The notes below the pieces were generated by a model that was not told the origin of the DNA, did no database searches, and saw nothing but the letters and a program-made list of their open reading frames with translations. DNA of 64,000 nt from Conexibacter sp. SYSU D00693. Lineage in GTDB: Bacteria; Actinomycetota; Thermoleophilia; Solirubrobacterales; Solirubrobacteraceae. The stretch lies in NCBI RefSeq assembly GCF_017084525.1, contig NZ_CP070950.1, forward strand, positions 930,001-994,000, in the 5' to 3' direction. This document shows, piece after piece, positions 10,294 through 52,475 of this stretch (position 1 is its first letter; every line of letters starts with the position of its first letter). The position numbers and the translations under genes were made by a program.

Positions 10294-11733
10294 GGCCGCG
10301 AGGACCGGGAGCAGCGCGCCGAGCTTGATCTCGGTCTCGGCGAGCTCCGCGGCGGGGTCCGAGTCGCGCACGACGCCGACCCCGGCGTAGCAGCGGGCGA
10401 CCGGGCCTTCGAGCAGGGCGCAGCGCAGGGCGACGCAGAGCTCGCCGTCCTCGTGGAGGTCGGTCCAGCCGACGGGCCCGGCGTACCAGCCGCGGTCGAG
10501 GCCCTCGAGGGCCGGGATGAGCGGGGCGGCGACGGCGTGGGGCTCGCCGCCGACGGCGGGCGTCGGGTGCAGGACGCCGGCGAGCTCGATCGCGCTCACC
10601 GGCCTGGCGAGCTGCGCGCGGATCGGCGTGCCGAGGTGCTGGATGTTGGCCATCTTCACCAGCACCGGCTCCTCGGCGCTCGTGACCCAGACGGCGTGCG
10701 GCGCGAGGGCCCGCTCGATGCGGCGCGTGACGATCGCCTGCTCCTCGCGGTCCTTGGGCGACTGCAGGAGCTGCTCGCCGAGGTGCACGTCGACGGCGGG
10801 GTCGGCGCTGCGGCGGGTCGAGCCGGCGAGCGCGAGCGTCCCGGCGCGCAGGCCGTCGCGCCGGACGAGGAGCTCGGGCGAGGCGGCGACGAAGGCGCGT
10901 TCGCCGCGGCCGACGACGAAGACGTGGCAGGCGCGGAACGCCTCGCGCAGGACACCCAGCACGGCGGCCGCGTCGTGCGCCGCCGCGGCGTGCACCTCGA
11001 CCGACCGAGCGAGGACGACCTTCGACAGCCCGCCCTCGCGGATGCGCGCGACGGCGCGGGCGACGGCGGCCTCGTAGTGCTCGGGCGCCATGGTCGAGAC
11101 GACCCGCGCGCGGTCGCCGGCCGGCTCGGGATCCCACAGCGCCAGCGCCGGTGCGGGCACGAGCGAGGCCAGCCGGGCCTCGACGCGCCCGACGACCTCG
11201 TCGGCGACGTCGTCGGGCGCCACGAGCGCGCAGGCCGTCAGTCGCGCCTCGCCCCCGCGGCGCACGAGCGCCACCTCGGGGACGTGGAGCGAGGCGGCGC
11301 CGAAGCCCGCCCAGTGCGGCGCGCGCGGCGCCTGCGGGGTGAAGCCGAACCCGCCGACCGCGACCGGCCCGCTGCCCCGCGGCCCGTCGGGCGGGTCGCA
11401 CTGGGCCTCGGCGATGAGCGCCCGCCAGTCCGCCGCGAGCGCCCGGAAGCGCCCGTCGCCCTCGGCCTCGAGCGCCTGCACGCAGCCGAGCGCCGCGAGC
11501 GCGAAGCCCTCGCGGTCGGGCTGCTCGAAGCAGAACCACGGCTCGCCGGGCCGGCGCGACGCCGCGACGACGGCCGACGGGTCGACGTCGCCCGCGACCG
11601 GGACGGTGACCGCGGCGAGGGCCGCGCCGCGGCGGCGCGCCCGGCGCAGCGCCCGCTCCACGTGGCGGGCCAGGCGCTCGCGGTCGGCGCGCCGGAGGGC
11701 GAAGGCGGGTGCCTGGCCGGTGCGCAGCTCCAT
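10291..11733 (-). CDS. menF: isochorismate synthase MenF
   Basis: 480 aa chorismate-binding enzyme converting chorismate to isochorismate. Conserved blocks lie in the C-terminal half: GGLSKVVLAR, VVGRGERAFVAASPELLVRR, GSTRR, KDREEQAIVTRRIE, VKMANIQHLGTPI, LHPTPAVGGEP and CYAGVGVV. The family also contains salicylate and anthranilate synthases; the men context supports MenF. The frame is open upstream, but ATG 11733 is preferred because a TAGCCT box lies 8 bases before it. The gene converges on menD. Confidence 0.94.
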   Translation of the reverse strand: MELRTGQAPAFALRRADRERLARHVERALRRARRRGAALAAVTVPVAGDVDPSAVVAASRRPGEPWFCFEQPDREGFALAALGCVQALEAEGDGRFRALAADWRALIAEAQCDPPDGPRGSGPVAVGGFGFTPQAPRAPHWAGFGAASLHVPEVALVRRGGEARLTACALVAPDDVADEVVGRVEARLASLVPAPALALWDPEPAGDRARVVSTMAPEHYEAAVARAVARIREGGLSKVVLARSVEVHAAAAHDAAAVLGVLREAFRACHVFVVGRGERAFVAASPELLVRRDGLRAGTLALAGSTRRSADPAVDVHLGEQLLQSPKDREEQAIVTRRIERALAPHAVWVTSAEEPVLVKMANIQHLGTPIRAQLARPVSAIELAGVLHPTPAVGGEPHAVAAPLIPALEGLDRGWYAGPVGWTDLHEDGELCVALRCALLEGPVARCYAGVGVVRDSDPAAELAETEIKLGALLPVLAA

Positions 11734-33680: not shown

Positions 33681-35270
33681 ATGAGCACCGTGGCCCAGCC
33701 GGCCGGGGCGTCCGCCCTCGCCGAGCCCAAGGCCCGGGAGCAGCACGGCCGCCTGTCGGCCGGCGCTCTCGGGCTCCCCAGCGTCCTGTTCTGCATCGTC
33801 ACCGGCGCGGCGCCGCTGGCGGCGATGATGTTCAACGTCCCGATCACCGTCCTGGGTGGCGGGTTCGGGGCGCCGGCGGCGTTCCTGATCGCGACCGTCG
33901 TCCTGACGATCTTCTCCGTCGGCTACATCGAGATGAGCCGGCGGGTGACCGCGGCCGGCGGCTTCTACACGTTCGTCACGCGCGGGCTCGGACCGGTGGC
34001 CGGGCTGGGCTGCGGGATCCTCATCGCCTTCTGCTACATCGTCTTCGCGGCGGCGGTGATGGGCTCGCTGGGCTACTTCACCGCCACGAGCTTCGAGGCG
34101 TGGTTCGGCATCGACCTGCCCGGCTACGTCTACACGCTGCTCGGCCTCGCGGTCATCTCCGCCTTCGGCTGGTTCCACATCGAGCTGACCGCCAAGGTCC
34201 TCGGCGTCGCGCTCGTCGCGGAGGTCCTGGCGCTCACGATCCTCGCCGTCGGCGTGCTGGTCGCGGGCGGCGACAGCGGCCTGAGCCTGTCGCCGATCAA
34301 CCCGGTCGAGGTCTTCGACAACGAGGGGGCCATCCAGACCTTCGGCGCCGCGGCGGCCGGCGTCGCCCTCTTCGGCGCGTTCTGGTCGTGGGTGGGCTTC
34401 GAGATGGCGCCCAACTACGCCGAGGAGTCGCGCGACCCCAAGCGCATCGCCAAGGCCGCGACGTACGGCTCGGTCATCGGCCTGGGCATCTTCTACGTCT
34501 TCATCAGCTGGGTCTTCGTGATGGGCTGGGGCACCGACGGCGTCGCCCCGGCGGTCAACGCCCAGTTCGAGGGCGAGTACGGCTCGGCCTTCTACCCCCT
34601 GACCGACCGCTACGTCGGCGGCGCGCTGACCACGGGCCTCGAGGTCCTCGTCATCACGAGCTCCTTCGCCTGCGCGATGGCCTTCTACAACACGGCCGCG
34701 CGCTACCTGTACTCGCTCTCGCGCGAGCGGATCCTCCCCGCCCAGCTCGGCCGGACCCACCCGGACCGCCACAGCCCGTACTTCGCCTCCATGGTCGTCA
34801 CGGCGATCGTCGGCCTCTACGTCCTGGGCTTCACGCTCTACGACTCCTCCACCGAGGCGTCGCTGCTCAAGCTCGGGACCTGGTCGCCGCTGCTCGGCGT
34901 CCTCGGGATCCTCGCCGTCCAGGCCATCGCGTCCTTCGCGATCCTGCGCTACTTCCTCACCGCCGCGAAGGACGGCTTCCACTGGTTCAAGACGCTGGTC
35001 GCCCCCGTCATCGGCGGCCTCGCGCAGGTCGGTGCCTGCTGGCTGCTGATCGACAACCGCGGCGACCTCGCGGGCGACAGCGACGTCTTCTTCGTCAAGG
35101 CGATCCCGTGGCTCGTGGTCGGCGGCTTCCTCGTCGGCGTCGTCATGGCGCTCTGGCTGCGCAGCTCGGCCAAGGACGTCTACGCGGAGATCGGCGCCTA
35201 CGAGCACGACGACCCCCAGGTCCACGAGCCCCGCGCGGCCGGCGGCGCCCTGAGCCCCGTCGGCGCCTGA
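33681..35270 (+). CDS. APC-family amino acid/amine permease
   Basis: 529 aa with about twelve hydrophobic helices. The first helix region (GLPSVLFCIVTGAAPLAAM) and the TM6-like FGAFWSWVGFEMAPNYAEESRDPKR are typical of the APC superfamily. ATG 33681 is used because upstream in-frame sequence has non-coding character. The copper amine oxidase gene follows after 40 bases, so it probably imports an amine for that enzyme. The substrate is inferred from context only. Confidence 0.9.
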   Translation: MSTVAQPAGASALAEPKAREQHGRLSAGALGLPSVLFCIVTGAAPLAAMMFNVPITVLGGGFGAPAAFLIATVVLTIFSVGYIEMSRRVTAAGGFYTFVTRGLGPVAGLGCGILIAFCYIVFAAAVMGSLGYFTATSFEAWFGIDLPGYVYTLLGLAVISAFGWFHIELTAKVLGVALVAEVLALTILAVGVLVAGGDSGLSLSPINPVEVFDNEGAIQTFGAAAAGVALFGAFWSWVGFEMAPNYAEESRDPKRIAKAATYGSVIGLGIFYVFISWVFVMGWGTDGVAPAVNAQFEGEYGSAFYPLTDRYVGGALTTGLEVLVITSSFACAMAFYNTAARYLYSLSRERILPAQLGRTHPDRHSPYFASMVVTAIVGLYVLGFTLYDSSTEASLLKLGTWSPLLGVLGILAVQAIASFAILRYFLTAAKDGFHWFKTLVAPVIGGLAQVGACWLLIDNRGDLAGDSDVFFVKAIPWLVVGGFLVGVVMALWLRSSAKDVYAEIGAYEHDDPQVHEPRAAGGALSPVGA

Positions 35271-35310
35271 CGCCTCCCCCACCCCTCACCAGCACGTCAA
35301 GGAGCGAGCC

Positions 35311-37299
35311 ATGAACCCGCTGACCACCCCTGCCCCCGACACCACGACGACCGCCCTGCACCCGCTCGAGCCGCTGAGCGCCGAGGAGGTCGAGGCCGCC
35401 GCCGCGGTCCTCAAGGCGCAGCGCGGCCTCGGCGCGAGCTGGCGCTTCGTCTTCGTGATGCTCCACGAGCCGCCCAAGGAGGCGGTGCGCGGCTGGACGC
35501 CCGAGCGGGCCGTCCCGCGCGAGGCCTTCGTCGTCCTGCGCGACCGCGAGACGCGCGGCACCTACGAGGCGACGGTGTCCCTGACCACCAAGGAGGTCCT
35601 GACCTTCGAGCGCGTCGAGGGCATGCAGGCGCCCATCACCATGGAGGAGTTCATGGCGACCGAGGAGCTGGTGCGCGCCGACGCGCGCTGGCAGGACGCC
35701 ATGCGCAAGCGCGGGGTCGAGGACTTCGAGCTCTGCATGCTCGACCCCTGGGCCTCCTCCTACACCGGTCCGGCGGACGACCCCGGCACGCGCCGCATCT
35801 GCCGCCCGCTGACCTGGGTGCGCTCGGGCCCCGGCGACCACGGCTACGCGCGGCCGGTCGAGGGACTGCTCGTCGTCGTCGACCTCGACGAGATGGCCGT
35901 CGCGGAGGTCGTCGACCACGGCGTCGTCCCGCTGCCCCCCAAGCCGGGCAACTACGTCCCCGAGCTGCTCGGCGCCGACAACGTCCCGTCGGTCACCGCC
36001 CTGCGCGACGACGTCAAGCCGATCGACATCACCCAGCCGCAGGGCCCGAGCTTCTCGGTCGACGGCCATCACGTGATCTGGCAGAAGTGGCACCTGCGCC
36101 TGGGCTTCAACGCCAAGGAGGGCCTCGTCCTGCACGACGTCGGCTACGAGGACGGCGGCACCGTGCGCCCGATCATCGCGCGCGCGTCGCTCTCGGAGAT
36201 GTACGTGCCCTACGGCGACCCGGCGCCCACCCACCAGTTCAAGAACGTCTTCGACATGGGCGAGTACGGCATCGGCTGGCTCGCCAACCCGCTGACCCTC
36301 GGCTGCGACTGCCTCGGCGACATCCGCTACTTCGACGGCGTCGTCAGCGACCAGGACGGCGGCGCGATGACGATCCCCAACGCCATCTGCATGCACGAGG
36401 AGGACGCCGGCATCAGCTGGAAGCACACGGACTTCCGCACCGAGGAGGTCGAGGTCCGCCGGCTGCGCCGCCTCGTCGTCTCGATGATCGCCACCGTCGG
36501 CAACTACGAGTACGGGTACTTCTGGTACCTCTACACCGACGGGACGATCGAGTACGAGGTCAAGCTCACCGGCGTGATCTCGACCGGCGCGGTGCCCGAC
36601 GGCGTCAAGCCCAAGCACGGCACGCTCGTCGCCCCCGGCCTCTACGGCCCCCACCACCAGCACTTCTTCTGCGTGCGGCTGGACATGGAGGTCGACGGGC
36701 CGCAGAACACCGTCGTCGAGGTCGACTCCGAGCCCTTGCCCCTCGGCCCCGACAACCCCGTCGGCACGGCGTGGGTGACCAAGCGCAAGGTCCTCGCCAC
36801 CGAGCAGGAGGCCCAGCGCGTCATCGACCCGCTGCGCGCGCGGTACTGGAAGGTCGAGAACCCGGGACGGCTCAACGGCGTCGGCGAGCCCGTCTCCTAC
36901 AAGCTCATGCCGGGCGACAACGTCCTGCCGATGGCCCACGCCGACAGCCAGCAGGCCCCGCGCAGCGGCTTCGCCCACAAGCACCTGTGGGTGACGCCCT
37001 ACGCGCCCGAGGAGCGCTACGCCGCGGGCGACTACCCCAACCAGCACCCCGGCGGCGAGGGCCTGCCGAAGTGGACGGCCGCCGACCGGCCGGTCGAGGA
37101 CACGGACCTGGTCGTCTGGTACTCGTTCGGCGCCCACCACGTGGTGCGTCCCGAGGACTGGCCGGTCATGCCGGTGAGCCACATCGGCTTCAAGCTCAAG
37201 CCCGTCGGCTTCTTCGACGGCAACCCGGCGCTGGACATGCCCCGCAGCGCGGCCGGTGCGCACTGCGAGCACCACCACAGCGAGGGTCCGATCGTCTAG
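35311..37299 (+). CDS. copper-containing primary-amine oxidase
   Basis: 662 aa, close to bacterial copper amine oxidases. The topaquinone precursor tyrosine is Y399 in TVGNYEYGYFW. Copper ligands are H449 and H451 (HHQHF) and H609 or H610 (AHHVVRPEDWP). The catalytic-base aspartate is D315 in VFDMGEYG, 84 residues before Y399, as I recall for the Arthrobacter enzyme. It oxidises a primary amine to aldehyde, ammonia and hydrogen peroxide. No signal peptide is seen. AAGGAG lies seven bases before the ATG. Confidence 0.96.
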   Translation: MNPLTTPAPDTTTTALHPLEPLSAEEVEAAAAVLKAQRGLGASWRFVFVMLHEPPKEAVRGWTPERAVPREAFVVLRDRETRGTYEATVSLTTKEVLTFERVEGMQAPITMEEFMATEELVRADARWQDAMRKRGVEDFELCMLDPWASSYTGPADDPGTRRICRPLTWVRSGPGDHGYARPVEGLLVVVDLDEMAVAEVVDHGVVPLPPKPGNYVPELLGADNVPSVTALRDDVKPIDITQPQGPSFSVDGHHVIWQKWHLRLGFNAKEGLVLHDVGYEDGGTVRPIIARASLSEMYVPYGDPAPTHQFKNVFDMGEYGIGWLANPLTLGCDCLGDIRYFDGVVSDQDGGAMTIPNAICMHEEDAGISWKHTDFRTEEVEVRRLRRLVVSMIATVGNYEYGYFWYLYTDGTIEYEVKLTGVISTGAVPDGVKPKHGTLVAPGLYGPHHQHFFCVRLDMEVDGPQNTVVEVDSEPLPLGPDNPVGTAWVTKRKVLATEQEAQRVIDPLRARYWKVENPGRLNGVGEPVSYKLMPGDNVLPMAHADSQQAPRSGFAHKHLWVTPYAPEERYAAGDYPNQHPGGEGLPKWTAADRPVEDTDLVVWYSFGAHHVVRPEDWPVMPVSHIGFKLKPVGFFDGNPALDMPRSAAGAHCEHHHSEGPIV

Positions 37300-37307
37300 G
37301 GCTCCAC

Positions 37308-37556
37308 GTGCCCTTCGCGCACGTCGGGGGTGTGCCGGTGGAGGAGGTCCTGGCCGCGGGCCCGGGCCTCCTCGCCGCCGGCGGCGCCTGCCTGGTGGTG
37401 CTGCGCGCGCGGGTGGCCGGCGGCGGCGAGGCTCAGCCGGCGGGCGGCGCCGGCGGCCCCGCGAAGAGGCGGTGGACGCGCAGGGCCGTCTCGAGCTCCG
37501 CCCGCCGCGCGGCGACGGGATGGCCGAGCAGGTCCTCGACGCGGCGCAGGCGGTAG
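37308..37556 (+). CDS. possible small membrane protein after the amine oxidase
   Basis: GTG 37308, 8 bases after the amine-oxidase stop, opens 82 codons. The first 40 residues look plausible: PFAHVGGVPVEEVL then a hydrophobic helix (LLAAGGACLVVLRARVAGG). The remainder is Arg/Ser-rich and antisense to the 3' end of the PucR-type gene. It may be a real short gene whose tail drifted into the overlap, or chance. No family assigned. Confidence 0.35.
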   Translation: MPFAHVGGVPVEEVLAAGPGLLAAGGACLVVLRARVAGGGEAQPAGGAGGPAKRRWTRRAVSSSARRAATGWPSRSSTRRRR

Positions 37557-38599
37557 GAGACCGTCCGCGGCGCCACCCCGAGCGTCGCGGCCGCGCCGGC
37601 GACGCTCTCGCGCGCGGCGAACCACGCCTCGAGCGTCTCGACCAGCGCGCCGTGGCGCCCCGGCTCGGCGGCGAGCGGGCCGAGCTCGGCGCGCGCGACG
37701 TCGGCGGCGGTGCGGGCGTCCCCCAGCGCGAGCGCCTCGAGCGCCGCGCTGCGCACGTCGACCAGGCCGGAGCCGCGCGACGTGGCGATCCGCGCGGCGA
37801 GCAGCGCCTGGCGGTGGGCGGCGGCGAAGCCCGCGGGCCCGCCGAGCCCCGCCGGCCCCTGCAGCCCCGCGGCGCGCAGGCGGTGCAGCGCCGCCGGCGC
37901 GTCGGCGGTGGCCAGCCACGCCCAGAGCCGGCCGTCGGGCGCCCGGACGGCCAGGTGCGGGACGCCGAGCGCGTCGGCCGTGGCCGCCACCGCCGCCTCG
38001 CCCGCCGGGTCCGCCGCGACGAGCGCGAGCTGCGTGGCACCGACGTCGTGCCCGAGCGCCTGCGCGTCGCCGCCGGCGAGCGCCGTCTGCACCAGGCGCA
38101 GTCGCCGCAACCCCGGCCACGCCTCGAGCCGGGCCCGCTCCGCGGCGTACTCGCGCGCGACGAGCGGCATGACGGCGTCCATGTAGGCGTGCACGGCCAG
38201 CGTGGCGGCGCGCAGCTCGCGCAGCGCCTCGCGCGGCTGGGCCACCGGCTCGCGGTCCAGCACCTCGAAGACGTGGTCGAGGACCACCTGCTCGCCCAGG
38301 CGGTAGGTGCGCAGCAGCGCCTGGACCTGCGCCCCGCACTGGGCGACGACGTCGGCCTCCAGGCGCGCGCCGTCCGGCAGGCCGCGCGGCGGCACCAGCG
38401 GCTCGCGCAGCGCGAGGACCATGAGCTCGGTGTTGTCCCTGGTGCTGCGCTGCACGGCATCGCGCAGCGCCGGGTCGTCGGTCACCCACAGCTCGGGCAC
38501 CTCGCGCAGCTGGCGCTCCATGAGCTCCTCGACGATCGCGTCCGTCCGCTGCTGCACCCGGTCGGCGAGCACCGTGCCTGGGGCCTGGCTGTCGCGCAT
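37433..38599 (-). CDS. PucR/CdaR-type transcriptional regulator
   Basis: 388 aa. The C-terminal 60 residues are the PucR helix-turn-helix (LVETLEAWFAARESVAGAAATLGVAPRTVSYRLRRVEDLLG). The N-terminal and central parts resemble the GGDEF-like ligand region of this family (LLRTYRLGEQVVLDHVFEVLD, RRLRLVQTALAGGDAQALGHDVG). Convergent with the amine-oxidase operon and a likely regulator of it. No TANNNT box is seen close to the ATG. Confidence 0.88.
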   Translation of the reverse strand: MRDSQAPGTVLADRVQQRTDAIVEELMERQLREVPELWVTDDPALRDAVQRSTRDNTELMVLALREPLVPPRGLPDGARLEADVVAQCGAQVQALLRTYRLGEQVVLDHVFEVLDREPVAQPREALRELRAATLAVHAYMDAVMPLVAREYAAERARLEAWPGLRRLRLVQTALAGGDAQALGHDVGATQLALVAADPAGEAAVAATADALGVPHLAVRAPDGRLWAWLATADAPAALHRLRAAGLQGPAGLGGPAGFAAAHRQALLAARIATSRGSGLVDVRSAALEALALGDARTAADVARAELGPLAAEPGRHGALVETLEAWFAARESVAGAAATLGVAPRTVSYRLRRVEDLLGHPVAARRAELETALRVHRLFAGPPAPPAG

Positions 38600-38677
38600 C
38601 CCCCGACGGTGCCAAGCGACTCGCGATCACGACACGGACCGCGGGCCAGAGCGCGTTGGACCGCGCGGCGCGTCGTG

Positions 38678-39109
38678 CTAGGTCTCGCAGGCGATGCCGT
38701 CGCCGTCGGGGTCGAGCCCGTAGGGGTCGGTGCCCACGGAGTCGAAGTCGGCGTCCGGGATGTCGCTGCAGCCGACGTCGCCGAGGTCGGTCGGGACGCA
38801 GGCGCCCTCGTAGTCGGCGGAGCAGGCGTCGCCGTCGGCGGAGGCGGTGTCCGTCGTGTCGGTGTCGGTCTCGTCGCCGATCGCGTCGGTGTCCGTGTCG
38901 CCGTAGAGGCCGTCGTCGGCGGTGACGGTGCGCGTGCGCGTCCGCGTGACCGTCTTCGTCACCGTGTCGGTCGCCGCGACGGTCACGACCCGGTCGACGG
39001 TGCGCTCACCGCCGCCACCGGCGCCGCCGATGACGATGCCGAGGACCAGCCCGGCCAGCGCGAGGGCGACCATCGCCGCCGTGGCCCGGCCGGTGGACAT
39101 CTGCTCCAT
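38678..39109 (-). CDS. membrane-anchored Excalibur-domain protein
   Basis: 143 aa. A hydrophobic helix near residues 10-30 (AAMVALALAGLVLGIVIGGAG) anchors a Thr/Asp-rich linker (residues 38-90). The C-terminus is an Excalibur calcium-binding domain ending DPYGLDPDGDGIACE, with paired cysteines. Likely cell-surface. ATG 39109 is used; ATG 39100 is possible. GATGCT lies 8 bases upstream as a -10-like box. Confidence 0.82.
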   Translation of the reverse strand: MEQMSTGRATAAMVALALAGLVLGIVIGGAGGGGERTVDRVVTVAATDTVTKTVTRTRTRTVTADDGLYGDTDTDAIGDETDTDTTDTASADGDACSADYEGACVPTDLGDVGCSDIPDADFDSVGTDPYGLDPDGDGIACET

Positions 39110-39149
39110 CGCGTCCGAGCATCACCGCCGGTTGACGCCGCGTCAAGCG

Positions 39150-40304
39150 CTACAGGGCCTCGAGCGCGACCAGCGCGGCCCCGCGTTCGCGCACGCGCTC
39201 GGTGAGCGGCGAGCCCAGCAGCTGCTCGGCGCGGGCCAGGCGACGGGCGACCGTGTTGCGGTGCAGCCCGAGGGCGTGGGCGGTGCGCGACTGGTCGTGG
39301 GCGGCGGCGTAGAACGCCGAGAGCGTCGCCCGCAGCAGGGCGGCGCCGGGAGCGGCGAGCGGGCCGAGCTCCTCGTCGGCGAAGCGCCGCGCGGCGTCGG
39401 CGTCGCGGGTGAGCAGGGCGGCGAGGGCGACGTCCTCGTAGCGGGTCAGCACCGCGTCGCCGCCGCGGCGGGCGACGACGAGCGCGAGGTCGGCCTGCTC
39501 GCGCGAGCGGGCGAAGCCGGCGGCGCCGTCCTGCGCGCTCCCGGCGACCGCGCGCAGGCCCGCCGCCGCCAGCGCCTCCGTGAGCGCCGACCACCTCGGC
39601 GCGGTGAGCCAGGCCACCACCGCGCCGCCGGGCTCGGCCACGAGCAGCGGCCGCTCGCTGCCGGCGGTGCGCAGCGCGGCCCGGACCTCGTCGACGAGGG
39701 CCTCGCCCTCCTGCCCGTCGCGCCACGCGAGCACCGCGACGTGCGCGCCGTCGAGGCGGTGGCCGAGCACGCGCTCGGCCTCCTCGGTGTCCACGACGGT
39801 GCCGGTGAGCAGCGCGCGCAGGACCTGGTCGCGGCGGGCGGCGTCGCGGCGGATGCTGGCCTCGCGCTCGGCGTCGTAGGCGGCGGCGACGTCGGCCATC
39901 GCGGCGTCCGCGTAGCGGAAGGTCAGCAGCCCGATCCGCGCGACGGCGGCGGTGACGTCGGCCTCGTCGGCCAGCGGCGCGAGCTCGACCGCCCGGGCGA
40001 AGGACGCCTCCTGGCCCAGGCGGTAGGAGCGCAGGAGCTCGGCGAGCGGGACGCCCTCGCGGGCGAGGTGCTGGCCGAACGCGAGCGCCGCGGGCGGCGC
40101 GTGGAAGCCGTCGGTGAGCCCGAGGCGCAGCACCTCCGCGAAGCCCTGGAGCAGCGCGCGCGTGCCCTCGGCCGCGAGCTGCCGGCGGCGCGGGTCGCCG
40201 ACGACCGCGGGGACCTCGGCCTCCACGCGCTCGAGCACGAGCCGCGTCGCGGTCTCGCCCTGGAGCGCGACGTCGCGCCCGAGCACCTCCTCCAGCGTCG
40301 CCAT
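39150..40304 (-). CDS. PucR/CdaR-type transcriptional regulator
   Basis: 384 aa. The C-terminal helix-turn-helix is LLRATLSAFYAAAHDQSRTAHALGLHRNTVARRLARAEQLLG. The central region has RRDQVLRALLTGTVVDTEEAERVLGHRLD, typical of PucR proteins. It is divergent from the SDR/BVMO/LDI operon and is the obvious candidate regulator. Upstream in-frame codons belong to antisense of the SDR gene, so ATG 40304 is preferred. CATTGT, 7 bases before it, lies within a perfect inverted repeat. Confidence 0.9.
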   Translation of the reverse strand: MATLEEVLGRDVALQGETATRLVLERVEAEVPAVVGDPRRRQLAAEGTRALLQGFAEVLRLGLTDGFHAPPAALAFGQHLAREGVPLAELLRSYRLGQEASFARAVELAPLADEADVTAAVARIGLLTFRYADAAMADVAAAYDAEREASIRRDAARRDQVLRALLTGTVVDTEEAERVLGHRLDGAHVAVLAWRDGQEGEALVDEVRAALRTAGSERPLLVAEPGGAVVAWLTAPRWSALTEALAAAGLRAVAGSAQDGAAGFARSREQADLALVVARRGGDAVLTRYEDVALAALLTRDADAARRFADEELGPLAAPGAALLRATLSAFYAAAHDQSRTAHALGLHRNTVARRLARAEQLLGSPLTERVRERGAALVALEAL

Positions 40305-40305
40305 C

Positions 40306-40322
40306 TGGTGCACAATGCACCA
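40306..40322. promoter_or_regulatory. operator-like dyad TGGTGCA-CAA-TGCACCA
   Basis: Seven-base perfect arms with a three-base spacer begin 2 bases upstream of the regulator ATG and contain its -10-like box (CATTGT on the minus strand). A half-site TGCACC recurs at 40362-40367, nearer the SDR start. This fits autorepression plus control of the divergent operon. Confidence 0.6.
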
Positions 40323-40389
40323 CACAGCACCCTGGATGCAACGCAATCGCCCTTGCTGCGCTGCACCGCGCCCCGGGACACTCGCTCGC

Positions 40390-41247
40390 ATGCTGCAGCA
40401 GGCAGGAGGGGCGCAGCCGGGGTCACGCGGGGTCGCCATCACGGGCGGCGCGCGCGGGATCGGGCTCGCCACCGCGAAGGCCCTCTCCGCCCAGGGGGAC
40501 CGGGTGGTCCTCGGCGACCTCGACGGCGAGCTCGCCGCGCTCGAGGCGTCGAGGATCCCCGGGGCCGCCGGCTTCGCGCTCGACGTCACCGACGAGGCCT
40601 CCTTCGCCGGCTTCCTCGACGAGGCCCGCGCCCACCTCGGCCGCCTCGACGTCCTCGTCAACAACGCGGGGATCATGCCCACGGGCCCCTTCCTCGAGCA
40701 GTCGCCCGAGCTCGCCGCCCGCATGCTCGAGGTCAACGTCCTCGGCGTCGCCCGCGGCGTCCGGCTCGCGCTGCCCGAGATGCTCGAGCGCCGCCACGGC
40801 CAGGTCGTCAACGTCGCCTCGGTCGCCGGCCGCAGCGTGGCCGCGGGCATGGCCACCTACTGCGCGACGAAGCACGCCGTCGTCGGCCTCACCCGCGCCC
40901 TGCGCCGCGAGCACCACGCCAGCGGCGTGCGCTTCACGCTCGTCATGCCGTCGTTCACCAACACGCGCCTGGTCGACGGCGCCGACGCCGGACTCGTCCC
41001 CGTCGCCGAGCCCGGCGAGGTCGCGGCCGCGATCGCCCAGGCCATCGCCCAGCCGCGCGACGAGCTCGTCGTCCCGCGCGCCGCCGCCGTGCTCACCCAC
41101 GCGATCGAGCGCCTCCTCCCCCGCGCCGCCGCCGACGCCCTCGCCCGCCGGCTCGGCGCCGACCGGATGTTCCTCACCGCCGACGGCCGCGATCGCGGTG
41201 CCGGCCCGACCCAGCGCGAGGCCGTGCTCCTCGGCGATCGCCCGTGA
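40390..41247 (+). CDS. short-chain dehydrogenase/reductase
   Basis: 285 aa classical SDR. Cofactor motif TGGARGIG near residue 18, LGDLDGE, NNAGIMPTGPF near residue 95, catalytic Ser in NVASVAGRS, and YCATK with the Tyr/Lys pair near residue 157. An acidic residue after the second strand suggests NAD. It is first in a tightly coupled operon and would oxidise an alcohol or reduce a ketone. The substrate is unknown. Confidence 0.93.
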   Translation: MLQQAGGAQPGSRGVAITGGARGIGLATAKALSAQGDRVVLGDLDGELAALEASRIPGAAGFALDVTDEASFAGFLDEARAHLGRLDVLVNNAGIMPTGPFLEQSPELAARMLEVNVLGVARGVRLALPEMLERRHGQVVNVASVAGRSVAAGMATYCATKHAVVGLTRALRREHHASGVRFTLVMPSFTNTRLVDGADAGLVPVAEPGEVAAAIAQAIAQPRDELVVPRAAAVLTHAIERLLPRAAADALARRLGADRMFLTADGRDRGAGPTQREAVLLGDRP

Positions 41248-41603
41248 GGGCGACGACCCTCGCCGCGGCCGCCGGCCTCGCCGCTTCCGCGCTGTTCGCC
41301 GCGCTCCTCGCGGCAGCGGGAGCGGGACACCTCGACGGACCGCCTGCCGGCGTCCTGGCCCTGCCGCTCCTGGGCCTGGCCGTCGCGCCGGCGGTCCGCG
41401 AGGCGGTCCGCCGCGACGACGGGCGCCTGCTCCTCGTCCTCGGCGCCGCCTGGACGATCGCGCCGCTGCTCGACCAGCACCTGGTCGGGGCCGTCGCGGT
41501 CGACGGCACCCTCCCCCACCTCCTGCTGCACACCGCCGGCTGGGCGCCGCTCCTCGCCGGCTCCCAGCGCCTCACCCACCCGCGACCCGTCGTGATCCGA
41601 TGA
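41244..41603 (+). CDS. small membrane protein in the SDR/BVMO/LDI operon
   Basis: 119 aa, GTG start overlapping the SDR stop (GTGA). Three or four hydrophobic segments: residues 3-26, 36-50, 60-78 and 88-104. No family recognised. Four-base overlaps on both sides show it belongs to the operon; it could aid membrane association or transport of a hydrophobic substrate. Confidence 0.75.
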   Translation: MRATTLAAAAGLAASALFAALLAAAGAGHLDGPPAGVLALPLLGLAVAPAVREAVRRDDGRLLLVLGAAWTIAPLLDQHLVGAVAVDGTLPHLLLHTAGWAPLLAGSQRLTHPRPVVIR

Positions 41604-43114
41604 CCGCCACCGCCACCAGGACCCAGACCCCCACGGTCGCCATCGTCGGCGCCGGCTTCGGCGGCCTCGCCGCCGCCATCGAGCTCAAGCGCCACGGCAT
41701 CGAGTCCTTCACCGTACTCGAGCGCGCCGACCACGTCGGCGGGGTCTGGCAGGCCAACCAGTACCCCGGCGCCGCGTGCGACGTCCCGTCGGTCATCTAC
41801 CAGTTCTCCTTCGCGCTCAAGCCGGACTGGTCGCGGCGCTTCGGCACGCAGGACGAGATCCGCCGCTACCTGCACGACGTCGCGCGCGAGCAGGGCGTGC
41901 TCGACCACGTCCGCTTCGGCGCCGAGGTCACCGCCGCCACGTTCGACGAGGGCACCGGCCGGTGGACGGTCGAGCTCGCCGGCGGGGAGCAGCTCGAGGT
42001 CGACGTCCTGCTCTGCGCCCCCGGGCAGCTCAGCCGCCCGAAGGTGCCCGACCTCCCGGGCCGCGCGGACTTCGCGGGCGCGCAGTTCCACTCGGCCGAG
42101 TGGGACCACGGCGTCAGCCTCGAGGGCAAGCGCGTCGTCGTCGTGGGCGGCGGCGCGAGCGCCGTCCAGGTCGTCCCGGCCATCGCCGACACCGCCGCGC
42201 ACGTGACCGTCGTCCAGCGCTCGCCCAGCTGGATCGTCAACAAGTGGGACTGGACGCCCGGCCGCGTCGAGCGCGCGCTGATGCGCTCGCCGCGCGCGCA
42301 GCGGCTCTACCACAACGCGATGTGGCTCTGGTTCGAGTCGCGCTACCCCGTGGTCAAGCGCGCGAGCCGGCCGCTGCGCTGGGCGTGGGAGCAGGAGCGC
42401 AAGGCGACGATGCGCCGCATCCTCAAGGACCCCCAGAAGGTCAGGGCCTGCACGCCCGACTACCAGATGGGCTGCAACCGGCTGCTGCTCTCGCGCGCCT
42501 GGTACCCGACCCTCGCACGCCCGGACGTCGACGTCGTGGGCGCGGGCGTCGACCGGCTCACGGCCGGTGGCGTGGTCTGCAGCGACGGCACCCACGTGGC
42601 CGCCGACGTCGTCGTGTGGTGCACGGGCTTCACCGCCACCGAGTACCTCGCGCCCATGGAGATCACGGGGCGCGGCGGGCGGACGATCCGCGAGGCGTGG
42701 GCCGAGGGCCCCGAGGCCTACCTCGGGCTGACGACGCCCGGCTTCCCGAACCTCTTCATGAGCTACGGCCCCAACACCGGGTCGCTGACCAACACGATCG
42801 TCTACCTGCTCGAGCGCCAGGCGTCCTACATGCGCCAGGCCGTCGAGCACCTCGGCGCCCGCGGCGGCTGGATCGACGTGCGCGAGGATGTCCACGCCGC
42901 CTTCAACGCCGAGGTGCAGGAGCGGCTGGCCGGGACGGTCTTCACCACGGGCTGCCCCGGCTGGTACACGACCGACTCGGGGAAGGTGACCCAGGTCTGG
43001 TGTGGCAGCCACGTCGAGTACGGCAAGCGCGTGGCCCGCTTCGACCCGCGCGCCTACGAGCACCACCCGGCGCGTGACCGCACGCCCGACGAGCCCCAGG
43101 AGGTCGCGGCGTGA
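41600..43114 (+). CDS. flavin monooxygenase, Baeyer-Villiger type
   Basis: 504 aa. FAD motif VAIVGAGFGGLAAA near residue 14, NADPH motif VVVVGGGASAVQ near residue 180, and the Baeyer-Villiger fingerprint FAGAQFHSAEWD near residue 158 between them. Such enzymes insert oxygen next to a ketone or oxidise an aldehyde. ATG 41600 overlaps the upstream stop (ATGA); the stop overlaps the next gene the same way. It would act on a ketone produced by the SDR. Confidence 0.93.
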   Translation: MTATATRTQTPTVAIVGAGFGGLAAAIELKRHGIESFTVLERADHVGGVWQANQYPGAACDVPSVIYQFSFALKPDWSRRFGTQDEIRRYLHDVAREQGVLDHVRFGAEVTAATFDEGTGRWTVELAGGEQLEVDVLLCAPGQLSRPKVPDLPGRADFAGAQFHSAEWDHGVSLEGKRVVVVGGGASAVQVVPAIADTAAHVTVVQRSPSWIVNKWDWTPGRVERALMRSPRAQRLYHNAMWLWFESRYPVVKRASRPLRWAWEQERKATMRRILKDPQKVRACTPDYQMGCNRLLLSRAWYPTLARPDVDVVGAGVDRLTAGGVVCSDGTHVAADVVVWCTGFTATEYLAPMEITGRGGRTIREAWAEGPEAYLGLTTPGFPNLFMSYGPNTGSLTNTIVYLLERQASYMRQAVEHLGARGGWIDVREDVHAAFNAEVQERLAGTVFTTGCPGWYTTDSGKVTQVWCGSHVEYGKRVARFDPRAYEHHPARDRTPDEPQEVAA

Positions 43115-45102
43115 GCGCGACGATCGACCGGCCGGCCCCCGCGCCCGCCACCTACCTGCGCCCCGGCGAGCGGCTCGACCGCCCGCCCGTCGCCCTCATC
43201 CCCGAGCGCGACCGGCCCGACGGCCCGGTGACCACCTCCCGCCTGCGCCGCAGCGTCGCCGCCTACGCCGCGATGGCCGGCGCGGGAGCGGTCGCCGCGC
43301 GCGTCCTGGGCGCCCGCCCGGCCGCGAACGCCGCGCTGGGCACCGTCCTGCCCGGCGCCGGCTACCTCAGCGCCGGTCGGCCGGTCGCCTTCGCCTCGAC
43401 GCAGGCCGCCTTCGGCCTGTCGCTCGTCGCGTGGCTGGGCAGCGGCAACGTCGTCGCGCCCGTCGCGACGTGGGCGGGCAGCGCGCTGCACAGCGCCCGG
43501 CGCCCCGCCGCCCGCCGCGGCGCCACCACCGCCGTGCCCGCCACCGCCGCTGCCGTCCTGGCCTCCGGCTGGGCCGCGCGCGAGCTCGCCCATCGCGGCG
43601 CCGTCCGCCGGCGCGACCGGCGCAACGCCCGCCTGCGCGCGCTGGCGGCCGACGAGGCCGTCAGCGCGGCCCCGCGCGTCGAGACGCCGAAGGGCCCCGC
43701 CCGCCCCCAGGTCGGTCCCGAGCTCACCGCCGACGAGCTCGCCCACGCCCGCTGGGTGCTCGACCGCGCCCTGCAGCCCGTCGACCAGTTCGAGGGCTTC
43801 GACAAGATCGAGCAGTTCCAGACGAGCTCGGTCCGCTACCAGGTCACCACGCTCGGCCACGCGCTGTCGACGCTGCAGTTCGAGCGCACGCCGGCCTTCC
43901 ACGGCTACCTGTCCGAGGCCCAGCGCCGCCTCATCGACAAGTGGCAGGAGCGCATCTGCTGGGCCTACTGGGCCAAGGAGTCGGTCTGGGGCCACCTCGC
44001 CTACAACCCCGACCCCGTCCCGCGCGACAACATCATGCTCACGGGCTGGCTGGGCTACCAGATCGCCTCCTACGCCTCGAACACCGGCGACCGCCGCTAC
44101 GAGGAGCCCGGCTCGATCACGTTCCGCCACCCGCGCGGCCAGGCCTACGAGCACTCCTTCCACTCGATCGTCCACGCCCTCGTGCGCGGCTTCGAGGGCT
44201 CGGACTTCACGCTCTTCCCCTGCGAGCCCAACTGGATCTACGCGCTGTGCAACGGCTACGGCGTCCTGCCCCTGCCGGTGCACGACCGGCTCCACGGCAC
44301 GGACTTCTCCGAGCGCGTGCTGCCGAGCTTCCGCCGCGCGTTCGAGCAGGAGTTCCTGAGCGTCGACGGCCGGACCGTCGGCATCCGGTCCTCGCTCACC
44401 GGCTTCTCGCTGCCGGCGATGACGTCGATCCTCAGCGACTGCGCGGTGATCTGGCAGCTCTCCCCCGTCTTCCCCGACCTCGCCCGCGGCCTCTGGGAGG
44501 TCGTGCGCGACGAGTGGATCGAGGTCCCCTCCACGGGGCCGGTCCGGATCGCCATGAAGGGCTGGGACAAGGTCGACCTGGGCAACTACAAGCGCGAGGT
44601 CCCGGCCACCGCGTTCAGCGCGATCAGCTGGGCGGCGCTCGAGATGGGCGACACGGAGCTCGCCGCCCGCCTGCGTGCCGACGCCGAGGCGACGCTCGAC
44701 CCGGTCGTCGACGGCGGCGTCAAGCACTATCGCCGCATCTCGACGCTGAACAACGGCGCACTGCTCGGCGCGTTCGCCGGCGGGGTGAGCACCCACCGCC
44801 GGCGGATCGCGGGCGGCCTGCCCGAGGCGCTGGCGCGCGGTCCCGTCCTCGACGGCGCCGCCTACCCGGACGTCCTGGTCGCGCGGGCCACGAGCGACGG
44901 CGAGGACCTCGAGCTCGTGCTGCGCCCCGGTCGCGACGACGCCGGACGCCAGACCCTGGAGGTCGCCCGCCTGACGCCGGGCCGGACCTACGCCCTGCGC
45001 GGAGCGACGACCGAGGCGGTCACCGCCGGCCCGGACGGCAGAGCCCGCGTGGACGTCGACCTGGACGGGCGCACCGAGGTGCGCCTGGTCCCGGAGGCCT
45101 GA
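43111..45102 (+). CDS. linalool dehydratase/isomerase-family membrane protein
   Basis: 663 aa, GTG start. Residues about 45-160 have three or so hydrophobic segments, absent from the short secreted enzyme of Castellaniella. From about 200 the catalytic (alpha/alpha) barrel domain follows, with WAKESVWGHLAYNPDPV, NIMLTGWLGYQ, YEHSFHSIVHALV and FPCEPNWIYALCNGYG. C371 and C380 are nine residues apart, like the catalytic pair C171/C180 I recall for linalool dehydratase/isomerase. A beta-rich C-terminal domain (about 560-663) completes the protein. It probably hydrates, dehydrates or isomerises an isoprenoid alcohol; the substrate is inferred. Confidence 0.82.
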   Translation: MSATIDRPAPAPATYLRPGERLDRPPVALIPERDRPDGPVTTSRLRRSVAAYAAMAGAGAVAARVLGARPAANAALGTVLPGAGYLSAGRPVAFASTQAAFGLSLVAWLGSGNVVAPVATWAGSALHSARRPAARRGATTAVPATAAAVLASGWAARELAHRGAVRRRDRRNARLRALAADEAVSAAPRVETPKGPARPQVGPELTADELAHARWVLDRALQPVDQFEGFDKIEQFQTSSVRYQVTTLGHALSTLQFERTPAFHGYLSEAQRRLIDKWQERICWAYWAKESVWGHLAYNPDPVPRDNIMLTGWLGYQIASYASNTGDRRYEEPGSITFRHPRGQAYEHSFHSIVHALVRGFEGSDFTLFPCEPNWIYALCNGYGVLPLPVHDRLHGTDFSERVLPSFRRAFEQEFLSVDGRTVGIRSSLTGFSLPAMTSILSDCAVIWQLSPVFPDLARGLWEVVRDEWIEVPSTGPVRIAMKGWDKVDLGNYKREVPATAFSAISWAALEMGDTELAARLRADAEATLDPVVDGGVKHYRRISTLNNGALLGAFAGGVSTHRRRIAGGLPEALARGPVLDGAAYPDVLVARATSDGEDLELVLRPGRDDAGRQTLEVARLTPGRTYALRGATTEAVTAGPDGRARVDVDLDGRTEVRLVPEA

Positions 45103-45105
45103 GCG

Positions 45106-45225
45106 ATGTGCCCCGCATGCCTGGCGGTCGCGGCCCTGGTGGGCGCCGTCTTCCGCCCGTGGCGGGCACGCCGGCGGGCGCACGCCGCGGCCGAGGCCGC
45201 GGCGTGGCGCCCTGAGGCGTCCTAG
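45106..45225 (+). CDS. 39-aa peptide at the operon end
   Basis: ATG 45106, 3 bases after the LDI stop, to TAG 45225. The peptide begins [16 protein letters not shown] (a CxxC next to a short hydrophobic helix) and ends in a basic Arg/Ala-rich tail. Codon use matches the operon, and the stop shares CTAG with the convergent chemoreceptor gene. Function unknown; a small membrane-associated accessory is possible. Confidence 0.55.
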
Positions 45226-49661: not shown

Positions 49662-52475
49662 CTACTGCCCGGCGCCAGGCGCCCGCGCGGCGGTCACCCG
49701 GACGGTCGCCTGGCGCTCCTCCTTCGCGTTGCGCACCGTGATCGACACGCCCAGCTGCTTGCCCTCGTCACCCGGGTTGCCCGACCCGAGGACGATCGCG
49801 CCGCCCTGCAGCGTCTTGCCGTAGAGCTCGGTCGCGGGCTTGCCGTTGGCCTGCACCACGCGCGTCGAGTAGCGCTCGTTGCCGCGCGACGGGATCACGA
49901 CGGACCCGTCGACGTCGCGGAAGAAGATGGAGCTCCCCCGCGCCTCCAGCCCCGGGTACCAGCCCAGGCTGTCGGTGAACGCCGCGACGCCCGGACGGGG
50001 CTGCACCGTGGTGCAGAGCACCGCGGTCGGCTGCCCGTCGTCGGCGAAGCAGTCCTTGGCCTGGGACGTCGTGCGTGAGCTGAACGCCGCGTCGGAGGCG
50101 TTCACGCGGACCGGGAAGTTCTCCAGGTCCGACTCCCCGTCGACGTAGTGCTCGGCCGCCCTGCCGGTGTGGCGCAGGGGATCGAAGTGCGAGTCGACCA
50201 GGAGGAGGCCGCCCTTCGAGCCGGTGCTGGGCAGGTCGAACAGGTGCGCCGTCGGGTGGTTGTCCTCGCCGTAGGTCGTGTCGCGGTACCAGACCAGCAT
50301 GCCCGGGGCGTTGTAGGCGACCTTCTCGACGCGCCAGGCGCCGCCCGCCGCCGGGTCCGACGGCGCGTAGGTCGAGTCGTAGCCGTAGGCCAGGCCGCGG
50401 TCGAACCCGTCGAGGTTGCGCCACTCCGCGAGGTAGTAGTGCGCGCGCTCCGAGACGCCGGGGTCAAGCCGCCAGCCCTCGCCGGTGGTGGAGGTGAACG
50501 ACGCGACCGTCGGCGTCCAGCCGTTGTTGGCCTCCGCGTCGTCGCTCCACACCGTCTCGGCGCCGTTGGTCAGCGACAGGTCGTCCACGAACCAGCCGCG
50601 CTCCTCGAACGCCTCGTCGGTGGCGTAGCGCAGACGCACCTGGACCGTCTGGCCCGCGAACGGGGCGAGGTCCACGTAGTCGTGGCGCCAGCCGCCGCTG
50701 GACCCGGTCAGGCCGAACCGCTTGCCGCCGAAGTCCTGCATGCGGCCGTTGGGGTCCTCGTAGTCGGCGGGCGTGCTCACGCGCGCGCCGCCCTCGGTGA
50801 AGACCTCCTGCTCGGCCCAGGTCTGGCCGCCGTCGGTCGAGACCTCGACGAAGCCGAAGTCCCAGTCCTCCTCGATGACGTAGTCGTTCCACATCCGGAG
50901 CTTCACGTCGGTGCCCTGCGGCACGGCGAGCGTCCGGGTGAGGCGCACGTCGGCCCACTCCTGGTCGTCACCGGTCCACCAGGCGCGCTGCCCGCTGTGC
51001 GGCGTCGTGAGGCGCAGCTGCTTGGGCGGCAGCTCCACGCGCAGGCCGTCCTCGGTGCCGACCGGCGTCCGCGAGGTCTGGCCGAGCGTGACGTCGCGCG
51101 GCCGGGCGCCGACGGGGACGACGGCGGGGTCGGCCCAGCCCAGGACCCACTTGTCCCAGATGCCCATGTGCGTGGGCAGCGACTGGAAGATCGGCCCGGA
51201 GTGCGAGCCCGAGCTCATGAGGTCCCAGAACTCGATGTCGGAGTCCGCCGCGTTCGACGTGTCGTAGAGGTCCGGCAGGCCGAGGTCGTGGCCGTACTCG
51301 TGGGAGAAGACGCCGACGCCGGAGTCCTCGGGCTGGACGATGTAGTTGTCGAGCCGGAGGCCGGTGTCGCCGATCTCGTCGCCGTCGATGACGCTCGACG
51401 AGTGCGCCCAGATCGCGTACGGGCCCTGGGCACCGCCGCCCGAGGACTTGTCCTTGCCGGCGTGCACGAGCACGACGTGGTCGACGTAGCCGTCGGGCTC
51501 GTCGACGACCTCGTCGCCGTCGCGGTCGAACTGGTCCTCGGCGTCGTAGTCCTCGAGCGGGAACTCCGGGTCCTGCTCGACGAGGGCGTTGACGGCGTCG
51601 ATGGCCAGCTGGCCCGGGCCCTTCGGGTTGTCGGGGTGGCCGACCTGGCGCTGGGGCTCGCCGGCCTCCCAGCCGCCGTCGTCGGTCTTCGTGCAGCGGT
51701 CGGCGCCGTACCAGGCCTCGGAGTGGTCGACCTTGACCCACGGGGTCGCGGCGCCCGTCACGGTGTAGGCGCCCTTGGACATCTCGAGGTAGTGGTTGCG
51801 CATCGTCGACCCGGAGATGTCGATCCCCCGCTGGCCGTCGGGCCCGCGCAGGTCGGGGCGCACGCGCTCGGTGATGCCCTCGGTGCTGTAGAGCAGCTTG
51901 TCGTAGTGGGCCGGGCTGAAGTCCGGGACCCAGAAGGTGTTGTTGTCGGGGAAGGGCGCCTTGGCCGGGTCGGGCATCTGGTTGTGCAGCGGCCCGCTCT
52001 GGACCGTGCCGGGCACGCAGGTGCGGTCGCCGAAGACGGTCTTCGGGACCATGACGCCGGAGAAGTCGTCCTTGGCCGCCTCGTCGAACTCGACGAGGAT
52101 CGTCAGGAGCTTGGCCTCCTGGGTCTCGGGCGCCTGCTTGAACTCGGCGGGGTTGCGGCCGGTCTTGGTCGCCTTGTCCTCGTCGGCGGCCAGCAGCCGC
52201 GCGGCCTTCGGGTTGCCGCCGGTGTGGGAGCGCTCGAAGCGCCACGCGTCCTCGAGCGCCTTGGGCTGCGGCGTCTTCTCGTCCTTGCGCTGGCGGAAGG
52301 CCGGGGCGACCGGGTTGAGCCACGCCTGGCCGGCGCGGTCGGGCAGGGCGGCGCTGGCCGCGGTGCGCCGCTCGTCGTCGTCGGCGACGGCAAGCGGGAT
52401 GCCGGCGCCCGCGAGCAGGGCGAACGCCGTGGCGACGGCCGCGATGCGACCGCCGGTCGAGCCCTCGTTGGACAA
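49662..52475 (-). CDS. secreted M6-family (immune inhibitor A-like) zinc metalloprotease
   Basis: 937 aa. The start is read as TTG 52475 because GGAGG lies seven bases upstream and a signal peptide (residues 1-31) follows directly. A propeptide precedes the catalytic domain with HEYGHDLGLPDLYD near residue 395, the HExxH-type zinc site with downstream aspartate. The C-terminal half has beta-sandwich modules with DFGFVEVSTDGGQTW and RGWFVDDLSL. An Asp-rich stretch (DRDGDEVVDEPDG) may bind calcium. It degrades extracellular proteins. Confidence 0.93.
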   Translation of the reverse strand: MSNEGSTGGRIAAVATAFALLAGAGIPLAVADDDERRTAASAALPDRAGQAWLNPVAPAFRQRKDEKTPQPKALEDAWRFERSHTGGNPKAARLLAADEDKATKTGRNPAEFKQAPETQEAKLLTILVEFDEAAKDDFSGVMVPKTVFGDRTCVPGTVQSGPLHNQMPDPAKAPFPDNNTFWVPDFSPAHYDKLLYSTEGITERVRPDLRGPDGQRGIDISGSTMRNHYLEMSKGAYTVTGAATPWVKVDHSEAWYGADRCTKTDDGGWEAGEPQRQVGHPDNPKGPGQLAIDAVNALVEQDPEFPLEDYDAEDQFDRDGDEVVDEPDGYVDHVVLVHAGKDKSSGGGAQGPYAIWAHSSSVIDGDEIGDTGLRLDNYIVQPEDSGVGVFSHEYGHDLGLPDLYDTSNAADSDIEFWDLMSSGSHSGPIFQSLPTHMGIWDKWVLGWADPAVVPVGARPRDVTLGQTSRTPVGTEDGLRVELPPKQLRLTTPHSGQRAWWTGDDQEWADVRLTRTLAVPQGTDVKLRMWNDYVIEEDWDFGFVEVSTDGGQTWAEQEVFTEGGARVSTPADYEDPNGRMQDFGGKRFGLTGSSGGWRHDYVDLAPFAGQTVQVRLRYATDEAFEERGWFVDDLSLTNGAETVWSDDAEANNGWTPTVASFTSTTGEGWRLDPGVSERAHYYLAEWRNLDGFDRGLAYGYDSTYAPSDPAAGGAWRVEKVAYNAPGMLVWYRDTTYGEDNHPTAHLFDLPSTGSKGGLLLVDSHFDPLRHTGRAAEHYVDGESDLENFPVRVNASDAAFSSRTTSQAKDCFADDGQPTAVLCTTVQPRPGVAAFTDSLGWYPGLEARGSSIFFRDVDGSVVIPSRGNERYSTRVVQANGKPATELYGKTLQGGAIVLGSGNPGDEGKQLGVSITVRNAKEERQATVRVTAARAPGAGQ

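Follow-up and report, generated by a model that had tools for sequence, protein, structure and literature searches.

A five-gene operon of Conexibacter sp. SYSU D00693 joins a long Ldi-fold protein to a genomically linked dithiol peptide

The window analysed here is a stretch of 64,000 nucleotides (positions 930001-994000) from the single-contig, 4.43 Mb genome of Conexibacter sp. SYSU D00693. It carries a co-directional run of five genes, encoding a short-chain dehydrogenase/reductase (SDR), a small membrane protein, a Baeyer-Villiger monooxygenase (BVMO), a long protein with the fold of the linalool dehydratase/isomerase Ldi, and a 39-residue peptide with an N-terminal cysteine pair, referred to below as the dithiol peptide. 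The original prediction, made from the letters alone, had proposed a terpenoid-alcohol operon here. All five genes were confirmed where it had placed them, the first four each with a 4-base overlap and the fifth starting 3 bases later. A regulator gene diverges from the operon on one side, and a convergent chemotaxis receptor gene flanks the other. In window positions, the regulator and the five operon genes are:

39150-40325, reverse strand: PucR-type regulator, divergent from the operon (HTH_30 6e-12, GGDEF_2 6.5e-11)
40390-41247, forward strand: SDR, 285 residues, PRK07825-like
41244-41603, forward strand: small membrane protein, 119 residues, with W70, D77-x-H79 and H96; homologue of the C-terminal membrane domain of long peptide-fused proteins
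41600-43114, forward strand: type I BVMO, 504 residues, with four motifs (phenylacetone monooxygenase 9e-68)
43111-45102, forward strand: long Ldi-fold protein, 663 residues, probably membrane-anchored, with C371/C380 (PF18566)
45106-45225, forward strand: dithiol peptide, 39 residues, starting MCPAC, with one hydrophobic stretch, a basic stretch and a W-x-P end

The product of 43111-45102, for which an Ldi identity had been proposed, matches Pfam PF18566 at 1.2e-81 (275.2 bits against a curated cut-off of 26.1) and is the only Ldi match in the source genome. Its AlphaFold2 model (pLDDT 93.4, pTM 0.92) has the Ldi fold, with Z scores of 35.3-36.4 to ten solved Ldi entries over 339-344 residues; the next fold scores Z 21.4. 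Superposition on Ldi gave an rmsd of about 2.5 over 340 residues at 20% identity. The two cysteines singled out in the original prediction, C371 and C380, do lie nine residues apart in FPCEPNWIYALCNGYG. They align with C170 and C179 of PDB 5hlr and stay unchanged across all 53 rows of an alignment of our own selection (the window protein and 52 relatives), whose profile matches solved Ldi at 2.3e-35. The available text of PMC6600392 describes C170/C179 of Ldi as reduced and near the bound monoterpenoid. The profile alignment begins only at 5hlr residue 64 and so does not reach two other Ldi residues, Asp38 and Tyr44. The N-terminal membrane segments that had been proposed are partly borne out: helices are modelled at 39-66, 91-111, 115-128 and 138-185, but the anchor is only mildly hydrophobic (best 19-residue Kyte-Doolittle mean 1.43). 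Two or more clear membrane segments occur in most long Ldi relatives. The beta-rich C-terminal domain is also predicted, with strands between residues 579 and 661.

The original prediction left the function of the 39-residue peptide unexplained; comparison shows it to be a real gene and the most widely kept partner of Ldi. An M-x-CC motif was first sighted in short frames beside Ldi genes of the window and of loci L015-L056. A fixed scan covered 900 bases upstream and 500 bases downstream of a gene for frames with an N-terminal cysteine pair and a hydrophobic start. It was applied to 62 close Ldi genes (scoring >550 bits with a profile built on 44 seed proteins, >400 residues, 5 duplicates dropped), which represent fewer loci, as L023, L051 and L121 hold two each and L031/L042 and L116/L124/L125 are near-identical. 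A dithiol peptide was found at 47 of these 62 genes, compared with 2 of 154 control genes, one of the two owing to the last gene of the Ldi operon L028. Among the loci fetched later (L109-L142), with 23 close Ldi genes, the pattern found the peptide in 18, and the profile in L131. The peptide gene precedes Ldi in 40 cases and follows it in 7; it overlaps the Ldi start by 4 bases in 25/47, and 26/47 peptides have no more than 56 residues. In pairwise comparison dN was below dS in 17 of 18 peptide pairs and equal in one. By-product frames of high-G+C DNA were considered and rejected, since both the control genes (2/154) and the low dN speak against them. Five further peptides in the same loci lie outside the scan or off strand, 37 bases to 6.4 kb away, and were identified by profile and inspection:

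L039: 37 bases beyond the end of Ldi, on the opposite strand
L131: 1.05 kb from Ldi
L051: one peptide, counted a single time, 1.2 to 1.4 kb from the two Ldi genes
L052: 5.3 kb from Ldi, opposite strand
L028: 6.4 kb from Ldi, same run

The linkage was also seen across whole genomes. Within one family, a peptide profile at E <=1e-5 matched 18 of 24 genomes with Ldi and 1 of 277 without (Fisher 6.6e-23), a 301-genome comparison in which only the specificity is independent, because 16 of the 18 positive genomes had supplied profile sequences, and for which the 1e-5 line was set after seeing the gap. The lone match in an Ldi-less genome sits close to the edge of a contig of 3,018 bases, so that any Ldi gene after it would fall outside the contig. 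A further 39 genomes gave a weak match at E <=0.01. Twelve plasmid records have an Ldi match, of which five were examined. The peptide is present in Aureimonas (38 residues, starting in the Ldi stop), in Novosphingobium (6 bases after Ldi) and, 1.05 kb downstream of Ldi, in Rhodococcus opacus; only two of these three long-Ldi loci are new evidence, because the Ldi proteins of R. opacus and L131 are 97% identical. No peptide was found at the two distant Ldi loci among the five records. The Aureimonas and R. opacus frames are missing from the gene table, which is itself known to be incomplete. One of the 39 weak matches, in the Ldi-carrying genome of L118 (G694), is a PCC frame with a helix of the same kind at a distance of 14 kb from Ldi (L181, ~11182-11439); it was left uncounted.

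The strict M-x-CC form is found in 44 of the 47 peptides, and MCPxC in the other three (the window, L015 and L016). The window peptide and both Nocardia peptides thus differ from the rest in their start; they are among the seven placed after Ldi. CPxC is a common redox spacing. Ten representative peptides gave no Pfam or NCBIfam model above cut-off; the window peptide had a match to Pfam Tad at 0.0016, below cut-off, the other nine had no Tad match, and a TadE/G pilus piece was rejected. The best match of the family profile in the source genome is the window peptide (3.7e-5, itself part of the profile; next 0.14). We found no account of a small Ldi-linked protein in the open-access PMC literature.

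In actinobacterial relatives the cysteine peptide forms the N-terminus of a longer membrane protein, in which C3, C4, W141, H150 and H169 are invariant (12 rows). The 119-residue membrane protein of the window, which has no Pfam or NCBIfam match, matches the profile of this fused membrane domain at E 8.4e-9 and 31 bits, the best of 200 shuffles reaching 6 bits. Therefore, what is one gene in L047, a locus from the same order as the window, corresponds to two genes here, flanking those of the BVMO and Ldi protein. This fusion or fission ties the peptide, the membrane protein and Ldi together beyond mere adjacency. The possibility that the small membrane protein is a copy of a Nocardia-like Ldi anchor was rejected, as it scores -1.3 bits to the Ldi profile versus 31 bits to the fused domain. 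A model of the L047 fused protein reached pLDDT 70.5 and gave no PDB match at E <=0.001.

The identities proposed for the two redox enzymes are genuine. The SDR matches adh_short at 5e-50 and NF005878 with 321 bits (cut-off 287), and carries TGGARGIG, NNAG and YCATK, where the classical SDR motifs are TGxxxGxG, NNAG and YxxxK. The BVMO matches FMO-like at 4.8e-20 and phenylacetone monooxygenase at 9e-68, and is about 30 residues shorter than the latter, between residues 213 and 270; the MymA/EthA group of Mycobacterium consists of shorter type I BVMOs. Type I BVMOs are defined in the available text of PMC9044951 by the series Rossmann - BVMO1 - BVMO2 - Rossmann, in that order, and the window protein fits this definition with motifs at residues 17, 47, 158 and 183. 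It is like phenylacetone monooxygenase and the MymA/EthA group in having both fingerprints and two Rossmann motifs in order.

Conservation of the gene order in relatives, which had been put forward as a check, is partial. L047 has the SDR gene first, then the peptide/membrane fusion and Ldi, and a PucR gene diverging from the run; in Nocardia nova L015, the BVMO, SDR, Ldi and peptide genes form one run. BVMOs 57-59% identical to that of the window are found close to Ldi in L015 and, encoded on the opposite strand, also in L016 and L129. L015 also has a WS/DGAT gene. Cluster membership places homologues of the genes for WS/DGAT, AMP-ligase and aldehyde dehydrogenase in L016, and an AMP-ligase or an aldehyde dehydrogenase is encoded in several Ldi loci (L018, L028, L129). 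A stand-alone homologue of the Ldi anchor domain precedes the SDR in L015 (6674-7096, E 2e-11) and L016 (6726-7088, E 1e-9), and Nocardia's own Ldi proteins have anchors of low hydrophobicity. Ldi is followed by an MpaB/Lcp-type gene in 11 of the 62 directons, these calls being made by Pfam for L122 alone (PF09995 3.6e-10) and by profile for the others. In Aureimonas, the Ldi gene on the plasmid is overlapped by one of the undecaprenyl-diphosphate-synthase family (1.2e-70). These MpaB/Lcp-type and undecaprenyl-diphosphate-synthase-family neighbours suggest an isoprenoid substrate but do not single one out. The Aureimonas locus (L182, 6294-9443) holds, in a row, the undecaprenyl-diphosphate-synthase-family gene, Ldi, an M-x-CC peptide and a diacylglycerol-kinase-family gene, which hints at polyprenols as substrates. 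The R. opacus plasmid (L184, 55-12669) has Ldi with a CtaG-like gene, the peptide, an aldehyde dehydrogenase, a cytochrome P450 and a ferredoxin, and opposite these an FAD oxidoreductase, an alcohol dehydrogenase, hydrolases and SDRs.

Ldi matches were found in 6 of 299 genomes of the window's class and in 6 of 396 of a sample of its phylum, its own included in both; three other genomes of its genus, covered by the class search, gave none. Corresponding counts, each including the organism named, are 24 of 301 for the family of Nocardia coubleae and 6 of 369 for a sample from the class of Sinimarinibacterium. Scanning the contigs of genomes yielded 30 Ldi loci from actinobacteria and proteobacteria; one genome of the window's phylum has four diverged Ldi genes (L051, L052, L053). 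A quick tree built from 72 Ldi proteins places the window protein with the two Nocardia proteins (SH-aLRT 100) and not with L047; its identity to the L016 protein is 57% over kept columns. Among the loci compared, on the other hand, it is L047 that has the closest counterparts of the window SDR (63%) and PucR regulator (44%). This gives the operon the appearance of a mosaic.

Elsewhere in the window, an amino-acid permease, a copper amine oxidase and two PucR-type regulators (33681-40325) make up a probable amine-catabolism cluster adjoining the operon. A cytochrome P450 gene (53701-55119, 1.9e-58) lies about 8.5 kb downstream, and 49662-52475 encodes an InhA-like M6 metallopeptidase of 937 residues with MAM and VEG domains.

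We propose, with a little less than even confidence in the whole including its mechanism, that the operon encodes a membrane-attached Ldi-fold enzyme of the type of the linalool isomerase Lis from Thauera linaloolentis 47Lol, together with a dithiol partner, and that both are coupled to the SDR and BVMO. The Ldi domain would sit at the cytoplasmic face of the membrane and, through C371/C380, would shift the hydroxyl of a hydrophobic allylic isoprenoid alcohol, or add or remove water. The SDR would oxidise the alcohol so formed, and the BVMO would insert oxygen into the resulting carbonyl compound. The MCPAC peptide may bind the Ldi protein or its membrane partner, and its thiol pair, the second of the system, could keep the Ldi enzyme reduced and active. 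According to the available text of PMC4791888, native Lis is active only after reduction, and lis alone in E. coli gives protein in the membrane with no activity. We infer that a thiol partner is the simplest reading of the peptide's linkage to long Ldi genes, because Lis needs a reductant, the catalytic pair of its relatives consists of cysteines, and the peptide's own pair is kept as CC or CPxC. More tentatively, anchored Ldi and Lis enzymes may be two-component systems with the dithiol peptide as an obligate redox subunit, whose absence would explain the inactivity of recombinant Lis.

Several observations weigh against this proposal. The fixed scan found the peptide at 0 of 12 distant Ldi homologues, therefore the Ldi fold as such has no need of it. 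Nor was a peptide found for 10 of the 62 close genes (L026, L030, L035, L049, L053, L112, L114, L118, the first of L121 and one of L051's two); L049 is at a contig edge, the Ldi starts of L030, L114 and L118 are unsure because these genes were called short, and the rest are plain misses. In five counted loci the peptide is non-adjacent, as in L028 (6.4 kb) and L052 (5.3 kb, other strand). Our own codon-model caller, used for all loci with a floor of 35 residues and leaving certain Ldi starts unsure, chose the first four operon genes and passed over the 39-residue frame, so that the case for the fifth gene is its relatives and not codon usage. For the inactivity of Lis in E. coli, its authors suggested wrong folding (PMC4791888, available text). 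A structural or assembly role for the peptide, with cysteines that serve packing only, is conceivable if unlikely; the peptide might be a membrane anchor or a folding aid. It has one short hydrophobic stretch beside a basic stretch, the window and Nocardia anchors are among the least hydrophobic of the long Ldi proteins, and Nocardia has the extra stand-alone anchor domain. Against such a role, Met1 and the two cysteines are the only invariant columns in 36 aligned peptides, although this constancy is partly by construction because the peptides were selected by their cysteine motif, which tempers its value for a redox role too; the strict M-x-CC in 44/47 arose from a search pattern that allowed other spacings. 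We are more doubtful of a metal site, for example for Cu(I), built by the peptide together with the His-containing membrane protein in place of a redox pair, so as to deliver or hold a metal for the complex. M-C-x-x-C resembles copper-chaperone motifs, W141, H150 and H169 are invariant in the fused membrane domain, and a Caa3_CtaG-like protein lies beside Ldi in Mycobacterium L018 (5e-7) and R. opacus L184 (3e-39). In L047 the fused membrane domain shows weak DUF2243 similarity, below cut-off, as do L117, L111 and L052 among ten proteins tested; such CtaG-like or weakly DUF2243-like partners would also suit a metal role. However, a protein of L023 from the same cluster as the CtaG-like one of L018 has no Pfam match, likewise the window membrane protein, and in the available text of PMC4791888 UV-VIS spectroscopy of Lis gave no sign of a cofactor.

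The chemistry and the extent of the unit can also be read differently. His128 is among the key residues of Ldi (available text of PMC12455561), but its position is W313 in the window protein and W, Y or F in all 53 rows (21, 19 and 13, respectively), a further point against our proposal; the protein is therefore to be called an Ldi-fold protein and not a linalool dehydratase. This substitution, together with the lipid-catabolism setting given by WS/DGAT, AMP-ligase and aldehyde dehydrogenase genes, would fit a different reaction, with a non-terpenoid lipid as substrate, for instance a fatty alcohol or the side chain of a sterol, Ldi then being related in fold alone. We hold this to be rather unlikely, since the MpaB/Lcp-type neighbours (11/62) and the prenyltransferase-family neighbour in Aureimonas favour isoprenoids, and Lis, of similar architecture, uses linalool and geraniol (PMC4791888, available text). 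Finally, SDR and BVMO are minority neighbours, which also counts against a coupled pathway: by blastp (E <=1e-10 and <=1e-20, respectively), and with directons taken as runs with gaps <=250 bases, an SDR lies within the Ldi directon of 10/62 close Ldi genes, and a BVMO in 3/62 (the window, Nocardia nova L015 and Sinimarinibacterium L028). The sequence of isomerisation, oxidation and oxygen insertion is therefore a local variant and does not form the core of the family. That both enzymes are simply passengers on a unit of Ldi, membrane protein and peptide nevertheless seems improbable given the four-base overlaps in the window operon and the 57-59% identical BVMOs near Ldi in L015, L016 and L129, with L015 and L016 holding the nearest Ldi relatives. 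Of the original interpretation, the Ldi homology, the cysteine pair, the SDR and BVMO, the co-directional run and, in part, the gene order thus stand, whereas the long form is not new and the proposed pathway is a local variant.

Moving, adding or removing water or a hydroxyl group is one way to make terpenoid alcohols or alkenes, hence the interest in enzymes of the Ldi/Lis type. A widely kept dithiol partner, short enough to escape gene tables, would turn the inactive recombinant Lis into a simple co-expression question, and the peptide offers a marker for finding further family members. The MpaB/Lcp-type and prenyltransferase neighbours make isoprenoids longer than linalool candidate substrates.

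Among known systems, the surroundings of lis differ from the window operon: its neighbours are geoAB and atu genes, and the term 'Baeyer' is absent from the text available on these surroundings (PMC4847356). A search toward Thauera lis in 109 genomes (the order of G1224) returned three Ldi genes at E 1e-28 to 1e-33; the two new ones have no dithiol peptide within their short flanks. With Ldi/LinD of Castellaniella defragrans (PDB 5g1u, 5hlr, 5i3t), the window protein shares the Ldi fold at Z 36 and the aligned cysteine pair, whereas it differs by its 20% identity, W313 in place of His128, and the extra probable anchor and C-terminal beta domain. The original prediction drew a contrast with the short Castellaniella enzyme, but the long form has a published precedent. 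Lis (EC 5.4.4.4) is described in the available text of PMC4791888 as a protein of 644 residues, with an Ldi-like domain in the cytoplasm and, at the N-terminus, four helices predicted to lie in the membrane. Compared by this description, the 663-residue window protein is like Lis in carrying a probable N-terminal anchor before its Ldi-like domain, and in not being of the short secreted form.

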